Source of the DNA: Tigriopus japonicus
Taxonomy: Eukaryota > Arthropoda > Copepoda > Harpacticoida > Harpacticidae
Assembly: GCA_010645155.1 (NCBI GenBank)
Contig: CM021318.1
Location: 6,431,278 to 6,495,277 of the forward strand
Length of the DNA: 64,000 bases
Direction: 5' to 3'
The first letter of the stretch is position 1, and the number at the start of each line of letters is the position of its first letter. The notes beneath the pieces were generated by a model that saw only the letters and a program-made list of their open reading frames with translations, did not search any database and was not told where the DNA came from. Of the stretch, positions 17,446 to 61,461 are shown in pieces. A program made the translations under genes and the position numbers.

Positions 17446-18479
17446 ATGGTAAGAGCAGAACTGTGTTTGTTAACTATAAAAAACGGATGCATTGCAATGG
17501 GAACCAATAATATCTTTTGCAGATTAGCTCCAACTTTTTGGCCTTTGGGTTGATCCTCTTGTTGGTAGCGCCTTTCAATGAGGCGTTCTTTAACAAGGGC
17601 GGTGGTCGTCGTCGTCCCCGCATCCATTGCACTACTCACTATGAGACCACATATGTGACCACTTACGAGACCATCTACAAGCCTGAGTGCTCCACCACTT
17701 ATGAGAATGAGTGTTCCACCACTTACAAGACCGAGTATGAAACCACTTACGAGCAGCAATGCAGTACCTCATACTCAAACGAATGTAACACCGTTTACGA
17801 TACGTCCTACAAATCGGAATGCGATACCAAATACGTCCAGCAATGTTCCCCAACAACCAGCACCGTCTATGAGCAACAATGCGTGACCAGCTCTAAAACG
17901 GTGTGTGACCAATCAGGAGGAGGTGGCGGTGGAGGAGGAGGTGGATCCGGCTATGATGCCCCTTATTATCAATCAAGCTACGGTGCCCCGCAAACGCCCG
18001 TGTGCCACTCCGTGCCAACTCAATCTTGTAAACAAGTCCCCAAGCAAGTTCATAAGCAATCCTGCTCCAGCGTTCCCAAACAAGAATGTCGTCAAGTGCC
18101 CGTCCAGGTGCCTAAGCAATCTTGCAAGCAAGTGCCCAAGCAGAATTGTCAACAGGTGCCCAAACAAGTTCCTAAGCAAGTGCCCGTTCAATCTTGTCAT
18201 GAGGTGCCCAGAGAATCTTGTCATGACGTGGCTGTTCAGGTGCCCAAACAAGTGCCCCAACAGACCCCTCGGCAAATCTGCAGTGGATATGGCAGTGGCG
18301 GCGGGGGCGGCAAAGGTGGTTTTGGAGGAGGCGGTAAAGGTGGTTTTGGAGGCGGAGGCAAAGGAGGATTTGGAGGAGGTGGTGGACATGGTGGTGGACA
18401 TGGAGGCGGTGGTGGTGGCGGATATGGCCACAGCAGCGGAGGCTATGGTCCTCCTTCCTATGGTTATGGTCACAAGTAA
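17446..18479 (+). CDS. Secreted Cys/Tyr/Pro/Gly-rich protein with mirror-symmetric cysteine arms (paralog 1)
   Basis: Exon 1 ends with the ATG itself (17446-17448); a 74-bp intron (17449-17522) precedes exon 2, giving 319 residues. Residues 1-22 are a signal peptide, likely cut after NEA. Arm 1 (residues 37-129) has nine Cys spaced 20,8,16,8,12,8,12,8 and places Tyr at nearly every other fourth-residue position. A 32-residue Gly-rich linker follows. Arm 2 (162-254) is built of VPKQ-type tetrads with nine Cys spaced 8,12,8,12,8,16,8,20, the exact mirror of arm 1. The tail (255-319) is GGF/GGY-rich, like silk or cuticle proteins. I do not recognise a named family; an extracellular structural or adhesive role is inference. 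Arm 1 is net acidic and arm 2 net basic. The paralog lies 13.5 kb downstream on the same strand. Confidence 0.9.
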
Positions 18480-30984: not shown

Positions 30985-32282
30985 ATGGTAAGACATGAAC
31001 TCAATCTCTTTCTCAAGGTCTTGGACTCTATTCAATGTTCTTCATTTGGTGCGCTAATTGAATTTGAACAATTGAATGGAAACTTTGTACAAAGTTTGAT
31101 TGATTGATTGAGTTGTCTCGTGCAGGAATCATTTACGAATCGTGACATTTAAGAGGAACTGTTAGCTATAAAATTGATTTAACTCAAGCTATCCCATGCT
31201 TTACAACACTTTACAACAATTTTATCACTATGGAAAAGTTCAGACTGACATTCCAGGGAAAAACTGACCAGAATCTGTTTTTGCCAATCTGACATTTTTC
31301 CTAGCATTTCCAACTTGTTTCGTCGGAAACTTAACAACATAACCTTATCTAGAGGGACGTTGGTCAAGGTTTCAAAAATAAAGTACGGTATTTTTTGTTT
31401 CCTTTATAGATAAGCTTAAAACCTTTGATTTTTGGGCTTGTTCTCTTCTCATGGGCGCCTTTCAATGAAGCCTTGTTCAACAAGGGTGGTGGCCGCAGCC
31501 GTCCTCGTGTCCATTGTACAACTCACTATGAAACCACATACGTGACCATTTATGAGACCATCTACCAGCCAAAATGTTCAACCACTTATGAGGATAAGTG
31601 CTCCACCACTTATGAGACAGAGTATGAGACCACTTATGAGCAGCAATGCAGTCTCTCTTACTCTAACGAATGCAACACGGTTTACGACACCTCTTACAAA
31701 TCTGAATGTGAGACCAAGTACATCCAAAAGTGTACGCCTACCACTAATACTGTCTATGAAGAGCAATGCCTCACAAGCTCCAAAACTGTATGCGACCAAT
31801 CTGGTGGGGGCGGTGGGGGATCAGGATATGACGACCCTTACTCTTACGAATCAAGCTATGGTGCTCCCCAAAAGCCCGTGTGCCGGTCCATCCCAACTCA
31901 ATCCTGCAAACAGGTCCCCAAGCAAGTTCACCAACAATCCTGTTCCAATGTTCCTCAACAGGATTGTCATCAGGTGCCCGTCCAGGTGCCCAGACAAGAA
32001 TGCAAGCAAGTGCCCCATCAAAACTGTCAACAGGTTCCCAAACAAGTTCCCAAGCAAGTGCCCCGGCAATCTTGCCGAAAGGTGCCCAGGGAATCTTGTC
32101 ATGACATAGCTGTTCAGGTGCCCAAACAAGTGCCCCAGCAGACCCCTAGGCAAATCTGCAGCGGATATGGCAGTGGCGGTGGAGGCGGCAAAGGTGGTTT
32201 TGGAGGCGGAAAGGGATTCGGGGGAGGCAGTGGGGGTGGCGGTGGATATGGTCCTCCTCCCTATGGTTATGGTTACCATTGA
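30985..32282 (+). CDS. Secreted Cys/Tyr/Pro/Gly-rich protein with mirror-symmetric cysteine arms (paralog 2)
   Basis: The ATG (30985-30987) is again directly followed by an intron, here 422 bp (30988-31409). Exon 2 (31410-32282) completes a 291-residue protein. Signal peptide 1-22 (cut after NEA), arm 1 at residues 37-129, linker 29 residues, arm 2 at 159-251, Gly-rich tail of 40 residues. All 18 Cys and both spacing series are identical to paralog 1, while the linker and especially the tail are shorter. The two off-pattern positions in arm 2 (His and Ala instead of Pro) and in arm 1 (Thr and Ser instead of Tyr) are also conserved. The differences show that selection holds the arm register rather than the Gly-rich parts. 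Function is not known to me; see paralog 1. Confidence 0.9.
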
Positions 32283-58657: not shown

Positions 58658-61461
58658 ATGGCTTGGAAGCAATTGTGCCTCGTCATTGGGTTATTGGCCT
58701 TGATTGGCCTCACCGTGGGTGTGAGTATTCGAGAGGCCATTGCCAAGGCCGATGCCGAGTTGGCCGCAGAGAAGCGAATGATGAAGACTGTGCACAAACC
58801 TTCAAACCGAGACAGCCGCAAAGGCAAGAAGTACACACGAGAGTAAGTTCCTGGTTTCTGTCGTCTTTGGCCTCAATAGGCCATGATTATCTTTCAAGTA
58901 TGCTTGGGTTAACTACATTGGCATTAAAGTCAATTAAAATGAACTCTTGATTCATATATAGATCAAAAGCTATGGACGCCCGGAACCGATTGGTGAAAAG
59001 GAGTGCTGATATGTTGAACATGGACAAGTTTATGTCCGAGGACATGCTTATTGCCAGCATTGAAGGTACAATGAAAGAGATGTTCAACTCCGGAGGCGTT
59101 CCTGGAGGCATGGCCCAATCCTGCCCTCACTTGCCGTTGGCCAATTTTGCTTGCTCACCCGAGGCTGAGAACCTGGAATGTGATCCCACAAAACCCTATC
59201 GAACCATCACTGGCATCTGCAATAACGTGAAACACCCATTATTTGGAGCTGCCAGCACGGCCCTGAAACGCCTGATCCCGCCAGCCTACGCTGACGGAAG
59301 AGGACAACCCCGAGGCACTCGCTTCTCAGCCTTGGCCAATGACTTCAGTAGGACTAAGCACCTGATTGGAACTTGATTTTAGACGAGGGAATGAACATTA
59401 TTTTGACTATTTTTCAACTCCAGGTCTGAGCAGCTTTTCGGGTTTGGGCGGGTGTGCATCCAACCCGGCAGCTCTCCTACCCAACCCCAGGTTGGTGAGC
59501 ACAAATTTCCATCCAGATGCCGACAAACCCACCAATGAGCTCACACACATGTTCACACAATTGGCCCAATATCTGGATCATGACATCTCGATTTCTCCTG
59601 AAATTGAGGCTGAAGAGTGTTGTGAGCATTTTACAGATGAGGAATGTTTCCCCATCTTTGTACCTGCCAGCGACAATTTCTTTGGCGTGGATGTCAGCCG
59701 TCCGAGTTTTCCATTTGGCCGATCCTTGTTATTGGAACAAATGGATCGCTCCGTCTTGTCTGACGAAGCATGGAGGTAAACTAAGAGAATAATAATCTCG
59801 CGCAAAGAAGGATGTTAATCTTAACATGGGCCTGGATTGCTTGCTCTCTGTAGAAGTATGGTTCACAACGTCACGCAAATGAGAAGTCAGAGCAGCGAGG
59901 AAGATGGGTCCTCCGAGCACCCAGCCACAAATGGTGAGGTCACTTGTTTAGAGCTCACTCGATCCACAGCTTTTTGCGAAGCCATCCACAAAGGTCCTCG
60001 CGAGCAAATGAATGCAGTGACGGCCTTCATTGACGCCTCCAACGTGTATGGGTAAGCAACCGTTTTTACCGTCTCATTAGCAATAAGGAGTAACATTTTC
60101 CTGGCTTGTCTACTTAACTGTTGTGCCCCTTGTTAGACTGCTTAGAATTTCAATTGACACGAAATCCAATTGCTTTGTTTATATACGTAGATAAGCCCTT
60201 GCATAAGCGGTGAAGCGGACAAGCCACAAAAATATCAGTCAAGATGTCCCCCCCAAGAATGTCTGTTGAAGCAATGAATTGGTAACCATTTGTCCCTTGC
60301 AGATCCTCAACTGAATTGGCGTCCTTGCTAAGAGACGACTGCGATGGGCTCTTGAAGGTCACCAAGACCGAGACTGGAAAAGAATTACTGCCTGAGATCG
60401 AGTTTGATGAAGAGCTTCAATTCTTGGCCGGCGACAGCCGCGCAACGGAGATGGGAGCCCTCGCAGGAATGCACACTATTTTCGTGCGGGAACACAATCG
60501 AATTGCCAGGGAACTGAAAGATCTGCAACCAGACTGGGATGATGAGGCTTTGTACCAAAACGCACGACGCATTCTCACTGCAGAGTGGCAAAATATCGTG
60601 TTTGGTGAATTCCTCAGTGCCATGCTCGGTGATGATTTGGTGACTGACATGGACCTGGGAACCTCGGGAGACGCAGCATACGATTCATCTGTGGATGCCA
60701 CTGTTGCCAATGGGTTCTCCACGGCTGCTTTCAGATTTGGCCACACCATGATTGAAGGTCTCATCACCATCTTCTCATTGCAAAATCCCCCAACCGAGGT
60801 GGGCACCCTCGAGGTCAAGGACACCTTCTTTGATCTCACACAGTATCTGGCTGACCAAGGACTGGGAATGGAAAGGCTTTTGAACGGTTTGATGAACCAA
60901 GAGGCCCAGGCCTATGACCGTTTCCTGGCTGATGATATCACAAACTTTTTATTTCAAAACAACAACGACGGCATTGGACAAGATCTTGCGGCAAGAAACA
61001 TTCAGCGAGGCCGAGATCACGGCATCCCTGGATACAATGATTGGAGAGAGTTCTGCCACCTGCCCAAAGCGTGCACATGGGCTGACCGGCCAGCAGAGAT
61101 CTCGCAAGAGAATTGGGACCAACTTCGAAACACCTACGCCAATCCTAGTGATATTGATCTTTTCGTTGGGGGGCTGGCTGAAAAGTCGTTTAAGAATGGG
61201 GTTCTGGGCAGAACGTTTAGCTGCATTGTTGCGGATCAATTCAAGCGATTGAAGTTTGGAGATCGATTCTTCTTTACTAATACGGCTGGTCCCAATCCAT
61301 TCAACCATGCTCAGAAGGACATGCTGAGGAAGCGGAATTTGGCCGAGATCTTGTGTGACAACACTGACATTGAAGCCCTCCCCAAAATGGCCCTGAAACG
61401 GAACTCTCCTCTCCTGCATTGCAAGGATGCGTTCCAATTGGACTTGAGCGCCTTTGTCTAA
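58658..61461 (+). CDS. Secreted animal haem peroxidase (peroxinectin / chorion peroxidase type)
   Basis: Five exons: 58658-58842, 58962-59347, 59424-59775, 59854-60051, 60303-61461; 759 residues. Animal haem peroxidases oxidise halides, phenols or tyrosines with hydrogen peroxide; insect and crustacean secreted members act in chorion hardening, adhesion or immunity. Seen: signal peptide about 1-22, a basic propeptide-like stretch, YRTITGICNN at the start of the catalytic domain, QYLDHDISISP with the distal haem His (His243), REQMNAVTAFIDASNVYG, MHTIFVREHNRIA, proximal His in FRFGHTMIEG (about 521), and ARNIQRGRDHGIPGYNDWRE near the C-terminal part. All expected catalytic motifs are present, so it should be active. 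The start was chosen because it gives the signal peptide and fits the TATA spacing. Substrate unknown. Confidence 0.93.

Follow-up and report, generated by a model that had tools for sequence, protein, structure and literature searches.

The window, a stretch of 64,000 nucleotides of Tigriopus japonicus DNA, carries two copies of a gene encoding a putatively secreted, cysteine-rich protein. In the first copy the start codon is predicted to lie on an exon of its own, spliced to a second exon that completes a protein of 319 residues. Exon 2 encodes, in this order, a hydrophobic N-terminus that by eye resembles a signal peptide, a first arm, a loop, a second arm and a Gly-rich tail, followed by the stop codon. 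The following features were assigned:

17446..17448, plus strand: coding part of exon 1, the start codon ATG, adjoined by a GT donor (inferred splice ATG/GTAAGA ... CAG/ATTAGC)
17523..18479, plus strand: exon 2, the remaining codons of the 319-residue protein with the stop included (inferred splice)
17628..17906, plus strand: arm 1, 93 residues with 9 Cys, Tyr-rich and acidic (strand 10-103 of the folded piece in the model)
17907..18002, plus strand: Gly/Tyr-rich loop of 32 residues, the putative hairpin turn (low pLDDT in the model)
18003..18281, plus strand: arm 2, 93 residues with 9 Cys, Val-Pro-rich and basic, its Cys spacing mirroring that of arm 1 (strand 136-229 of the folded piece in the model)
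18282..18476, plus strand: C-terminal tail rich in Gly, Lys, Phe, His and Tyr
31410..32279, plus strand: second gene copy (exon 2 minus stop), with the same 18 Cys and the same mirrored intervals

The Cys intervals were recomputed and are 20, 8, 16, 8, 12, 8, 12 and 8 in arm 1 and 8, 12, 8, 12, 8, 16, 8 and 20 in arm 2. The second series is the exact reversal of the first, as the original prediction had claimed, and the Cys codons span 17628 to 18279-18281, which also agrees with it. Its reading of every fourth residue was reproduced as well: arm 1 shows Cys or Tyr with one Thr and one Ser as exceptions, and arm 2 shows Cys or Pro with one His and one Ala. The Thr exception faces the His exception; additionally, the Ser faces a Pro and the Ala faces a Tyr. 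The opposite charge of the arms, with 13 acidic and 5 basic residues in arm 1 and 4 acidic and 13 basic residues in arm 2, is present in the window protein but does not hold generally. The combination of a net acidic arm 1 and a net basic arm 2 is common but not a rule: 11 of 19 copepod-type proteins have it, as does one of six bacterial ones (P0153, by a margin of one residue).

The second copy lies about 14 kb downstream of the first on the same strand. The two copies differ at 14 residues per arm (28 in total), four of which are mutually facing, and no difference falls on a Cys or on any other every-fourth register position. A long ORF at 60286-61458 was recognised by eye as resembling an animal heme peroxidase; to tie it to Tyr cross-linking is speculation.

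The chance of the exact reverse order in the window protein is 10^-2.9, given the arm's own interval set, and only about 1 in 12 if every second interval is granted to be 8. Because of these values the window protein alone is suggestive. It is the mirror in the family as a whole, beyond this single protein, that is decisive.

Cysteine spacing is mirrored across a protein family

About 30 separate related loci were found in the 195-Mb genome with three queries at E up to 0.001 (our count). The number of successive Cys intervals that are equal between the arms, counted outward from the loop, was used as the mirror score. Among 22 proteins of this genome, 12 show a full mirror of the shorter side, four match in all but the outermost interval, one contains a bulge (L033), one (L034, assembled later) has 11/11 Cys facing Cys, and four fail or are uninformative. 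Full mirrors were obtained for the window protein, L009, L012, L015s and L017s (8/8 each), L020 (10/10), L029 (13/13), L025 (21/21) and L011 (41/41), and also for L028 (8/8, open part only), L021s (7/7, last exon not found) and L024i (6/6, inner part only). The outermost interval alone is unmatched in L010 (33/34), L013 (34/35), L016s (26/27) and L022, the longest member, in which 72/73 intervals are mirrored over 594 residues. In L033, 32/60 intervals match up to the bulge, beyond which there is a stretch where most intervals match once more. The database protein P0002 matches in 4/4 intervals.

The exact mirror test was failed by L023 (2/9) and L026 (2/3), yet the series 16, 8, 16, 8 recurs on both of their sides. 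L030 (6/14) consists of two tandem hairpins, one with 8 Cys pairs and one with 7, and each has two mismatches; its gaps are nearly all 8, so that the test is uninformative. It is a 400-residue ORF, and the first five register pairs read YP QT YP TT YP versus YP QT YP QT YP. L014i, an incomplete gene model, scores 7/10 around a wrong centre and 5/5 around the true loop. L018, L019/L035, L027/L037, L031 and L032 were fetched and left unscored as whole proteins; L031 and L032 gave partial runs of 3/5 and 3/3.

The chance of the mirror order is 10^-13.7 for L010, 10^-12.8 for L022, 10^-11.8 for L016s, 10^-11.4 for L033 and 10^-10.0 for L011; these probabilities are conditional on composition, with the hairpin centre picked to maximise the run, and the paralogues are not independent. 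The original prediction had named a spacing change confined to one arm as the observation that would speak against it. Such changes were sought in the homologues, and most of the scored members change in mirrored pairs instead. Between members, an interval of 12 becomes 16 in both arms, or a Cys pair is added. Irregular intervals are mirrored as well: an interval of 6 matches one of 6 in L029, an 11 matches an 11 in L033, and the L013 and L022 caps repeat 4 and 6 on both sides.

Several further features of the family were noticed. The longest ORFs scored, L022, L033 and L011, lie within 40 kb of each other (G000:C4:9177588-9214919) on the window's own contig. An end cap outside the ladder is, by eye, common to L013, L016, L022 and P0109. 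On the N-terminal side it comprises an EPEC-containing Cys cluster (intervals 20, 12, 6, 4 in L013 and L022), and on the C-terminal side YWCKVC or YWCKIC (intervals 4, 6, 3 in L013, L016 and L022). In L025 a short Cys-rich stretch ahead of the ladder looks WAP-like by eye.

At E up to 0.001, two protein database searches returned 107 and 90 relatives. P0065 from the salmon louse Lepeophtheirus salmonis has 8/8 intervals mirrored, and P0016, which shares 78% identity with L020 over 112 residues, is labelled TCALIF_09650, a tag that presumably denotes Tigriopus californicus. At least 70% of the Cys are paired in one antiparallel register in 76 of the 137 database relatives that have 12 or more Cys, versus 5/137 shuffled arm-2 controls (mean of 50 shuffles each); part of this census is weak evidence, because uniform gaps of 8 pair trivially. 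We suspect that the 61/137 proteins below the 70% mark include tandem hairpins as well as pieces cut by introns or limited to one arm. Some of the database matches carry precomputed Pfam accessions.

Some of the database relatives are found on long, bacterial-type contigs. When bacterial and archaeal genomes were scanned for the P0148 group with two short peptide patterns, three loci were obtained, each from Bacteriovoracaceae or Bacteriovorax. A profile of 14 presumed-bacterial sequences matches 55/191 genomes of the phylum of the Bacteriovoracaceae; this profile includes the C-terminal domain, and among the matches in those 55 genomes the mirror was scored only in five genes. These five genes, from three Bacteriovoracaceae genomes, have intervals of mostly 8, 9 and 10, which are mirrored in 14/15 cases in L038, 13/14 in L039, 8/9 in both L041 and L042, and 6/8 in L040 (the same gene as L043). 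The first unmatched interval is 11 versus 13 in all five genes, and the mismatches are confined to the outermost one or two intervals. One interval of 9 that is present in L038 is absent from both arms of L039. In L038-L043 the hairpin is followed by a further beta-rich C-terminal domain, which is weakly Ig-like (TM at most 0.42 of target among the matches listed). No constant partner gene was seen when the neighbours of L038, L039 and L045 were read by eye.

Facing residues, predicted fold and register

Residues at facing positions were analysed in 17 proteins, namely 16 from the same genome and P0002; L023, L026, L014i, L033 and L030 were left out, and L034 came later. If Cys occupy the non-hydrogen-bonded sites of an antiparallel pair, the odd positions are hydrogen-bonded and do not accommodate Pro. 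The paired arms of the 17 proteins contain 388 Pro, one of which lies at an odd position. In arm 2 (n = 343), 329 Pro are at position 0 and 14 at position 2 modulo 4 from Cys, and the odd positions are free of Pro; in arm 1, 44 Pro are at even positions, alongside the single odd one. Among 61 non-redundant database relatives, chosen for Cys in one register and evaluated over even-length intervals up to 24 only, Pro accounts for 0/5,082 odd residues versus 597/3,934 even ones. This proline rule is, like the mirrored spacing and its co-variation, a direct observation. Pro is all but absent from what would be the hydrogen-bonded pair positions of the ladder, as is characteristic of a two-stranded antiparallel beta ribbon.

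Facing Pro-Pro pairs are absent from the 17 proteins, compared with 13.6 ± 2.0 expected from within-protein shuffling, and 0/20,000 shuffles were as low. Tyr/Phe-Pro facing pairs number 172, versus 151 ± 3.1 in shuffles. The 21 register Pro of arm 1 in these proteins face Tyr, Phe, Asn, Gln, Thr, Met, Leu or Asp. When the partner was slid along, they faced Pro in 11/21 cases at -8 and in 16/21 at +8, and in 2/21 at -4 and 1/21 at +4. The count is low at -4 and +4 too, so at one register step the true position is not alone in showing the avoidance; presumably, the places reached there are often Cys. One Pro-Pro pair occurs in L033, and the database set contains 12, versus 40.1 ± 3.7 expected; seven of the 12 are in P0110, which is probably a single-arm piece.

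The facing of Tyr and Pro, claimed in the original prediction, was upheld, and it occurs in both directions in L034. The register pairs of this protein are YP YK TP PY YP PI YP PY YP PY PY, so that Tyr and Pro alternate in both arms and face each other four times in each direction. Tyr itself proved dispensable: in the long members Asn faces Pro.

The structure of the arms was predicted with AlphaFold2, with the models of single chains read at the level of secondary structure. The window arms folded together with two relatives gave strands 10-103 and 136-229, of 94 residues each, with a block pLDDT of 80-93; the mean pLDDT was 78.2 and 77.1 in two of the five models and 43.5, 37.7 and 30.3 in the other three, and pTM was 0.26. 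The strand ends sum to 239, which is the Cys-pair sum. The monomer prediction called for by the original prediction thus yields two strands with matching ends. For the bacterial P0136 with seven relatives, strands 71-193 and 200-324 (123 and 125 residues) were predicted with modest confidence; the five models scored 60.6 to 70.4, with ladder block pLDDT means of 48-80 over residues 101-280, and the inner strand ends sum to 393, like the 12 Cys pairs of this protein. The sequence mirror, the co-variation of facing positions and the models all point to two antiparallel strands with constant i + j, as a ribbon requires, and the two-stranded ribbon fold is a strong prediction. A Foldseek comparison with PDB and the viral models of BFVD, followed by a second look with VIA, gave no close fold, which does not prove that the fold is new. 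In BFVD the best match combines an E of 9.9e-11 with a TM of only 0.29 and an rmsd of 71.6, and none among the matches listed exceeds TM 0.30.

In the true register the window protein has 9/9 Cys pairs, compared with 5/9 in its best slipped register. Slips leave a fraction between 0.40 and 0.88 of the pairs intact across 19 proteins, and L022, where a slip of 8 keeps 64/73 pairs, has the weakest code. When arms of paralogues from different spacing classes were cross-paired, the fit was at most 0.82, as against a self-fit that is 1.00 by construction, the arms having been cut to the matched span. One spacing is common to L012, L015 and L017, and the incomplete L021 fits them at 0.89; the window copies share another. 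Parallel pairing also fits L012, L015 and L017 (8/9 each), L021 (8/8, incomplete) and L020 (10/11), because the inner spacing of these proteins is nearly palindromic. The uneven spacing may serve to fix the register and to distinguish paralogues from one another.

Proposed structure, alternatives and known systems

We propose that the window protein is a secreted structural rod and that, with high probability, its arms pair antiparallel into one stapled two-stranded beta ribbon. Residue i of arm 1 would pair with the mirrored residue of arm 2, giving an uninterrupted ribbon about 93 residues long. The Cys would occupy non-hydrogen-bonded pair positions, which in antiparallel sheets are sterically favourable for cross-strand cystines, and the nine facing pairs would form disulfides as nine rungs. 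At the rungs between them, Tyr (or Asn) of one arm would pack on Pro of the other. Pro would be tolerated solely at non-hydrogen-bonded positions because its missing NH points outward there, and at this outward edge it may stop the ribbon from joining further sheets. The gaps of 8, 12, 16 and 20 would act as a register code that allows full alignment in one register only. As to function, we lean towards a structural rod or spacer of an extracellular coat or secretion, judging from the secretory-looking N-terminus, the repetitiveness, the absence of any recognised domain, and tails rich in Gly, His and Tyr. More broadly, we favour, with reasonable but limited confidence, the view that uneven mirrored Cys spacing is the register code of stapled two-stranded beta ribbons in crustaceans and Bacteriovoracaceae, with strands of up to about 600 residues and as many as 73 facing Cys pairs per chain, and that many genes have their own code, although a few have one in common, which would set the register of their own arms and disfavour partners with another code.

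The same ladder would result if arm 1 paired with arm 2 of the next chain, giving head-to-tail fibres or swapped dimers. Covariation at facing positions is blind to whether pairing is intra- or intermolecular, and long loops do occur, with 103 residues in L022, 154 in L029 and 169 in L034. Nevertheless, intermolecular pairing is unlikely, given that 9/19 members (L012, P0002, L010, L015, L017, L021, L020, L025 and L033) have short, turn-like loops of 8-15 residues between the innermost Cys and that single chains yield two long end-matched strands with AlphaFold2 in two distant members. The hairpin loops of L013 and L022 (2/19 proteins) contain the motif RWKR, which we take to be a furin-type site. 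This suggests that loops of this type may be cleaved after folding, as in proinsulin, so that two chains would derive from one that had folded as a single chain, which also argues against intermolecular pairing.

A ladder without disulfides, in which the Cys are free or bind Zn or Cu and the mirrored spacing reflects metal sites between the arms, is considerably less probable still. Facing Cys could be ligands, and the His-Gly-rich stretches that adjoin several members could bind metal as well; however, the N-termini look secretory, the facing Cys would occupy the textbook place of a cystine at non-hydrogen-bonded antiparallel sites, and a rung offers only two thiols, fewer than expected of a typical metal site. 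We give hardly any credence to a mirror that arose by chance or as a by-product of repeat duplication, with no pairing of the arms. The arms do consist of 8-residue repeats, in which accidental likeness is possible, and the order in the window protein is at best as improbable as calculated above, but mirrored irregular intervals recur in proteins of quite different spacing and in bacteria, and the facing positions other than Cys co-vary as well. Two duplication routes to the mirror were rejected by reasoning: direct duplication would give the same order rather than the reversed one, and inverted DNA duplication does not yield Cys for Cys.

If the antiparallel stapled ribbon is correct, the architecture can be read off the primary sequence much like base pairing off that of an RNA, with the two halves carrying complementary position codes. 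It would explain how a repetitive sequence finds one register among many, and these would be the longest cystine ladders known to us. Design rules for stapled beta rods would follow, namely Cys opposite Cys, Tyr opposite Pro, hardly any Pro opposite Pro, and Pro at non-hydrogen-bonded sites only. Many Cys-rich proteins of crustaceans and Bacteriovoracaceae that lack annotation would also be given a fold at once.

The statement in the original prediction that no described family has this design is borne out by the Pfam, NCBIfam and PDB sequences and open-licence PMC papers searched. The window protein matches no Pfam family at E up to 1 and no NCBIfam family. Among the relatives scanned with Pfam and/or NCBIfam, only P0007 scored above a cut-off (Mucin-like, 31.3 versus 28.7 bits), in a tail behind the ladder. 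Two PDB sequence matches at E up to 0.002, one a Gly-linker match and the other a Pro/Gln-rich stretch that lacks the Cys and aligns with arm 2, were judged compositional. Among open-licence PMC papers, searches for the design, its sequence motifs or likely nicknames found none that describes it.

Several known systems share single features with the ladder proteins. Rebers-Riddiford cuticle proteins (PF00379), of which the same genome has 146 matches, are also secreted and have Gly/Tyr-rich low-complexity parts; the window protein, having no Pfam match, has no PF00379 chitin-binding domain. Keratin-associated proteins and cornifin/small proline-rich proteins likewise contribute Cys- and Pro-rich repeats to structural coats. 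We know of no mirrored two-arm architecture in either group, and a cornifin match in the relative P0117 is far under the cut-off (13.9 versus 34.8 bits). Theta-defensins are 18-residue cyclic peptides with three rungs. In them, cross-strand cystine rungs join two antiparallel strands, as the putative bonds would do here. Unlike theta-defensins, the ladder proteins have an open chain, between 5 and 73 facing Cys pairs and non-uniform mirrored spacing; the window protein, an open chain of 319 residues with nine facing pairs, does not have the short cyclic three-rung backbone. Very long beta hairpins are also formed by pore-forming proteins such as lysenin, the aerolysin family and the translocase pores of binary toxins, and the solved structures among the Foldseek matches listed are mostly hairpin stems of pore-formers, whose hairpins show weak geometric similarity, together with phage tail and collar proteins. 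The beta hairpin as such is old, and a sequence-coded, cystine-type ladder of such length is, as far as we have searched, new.
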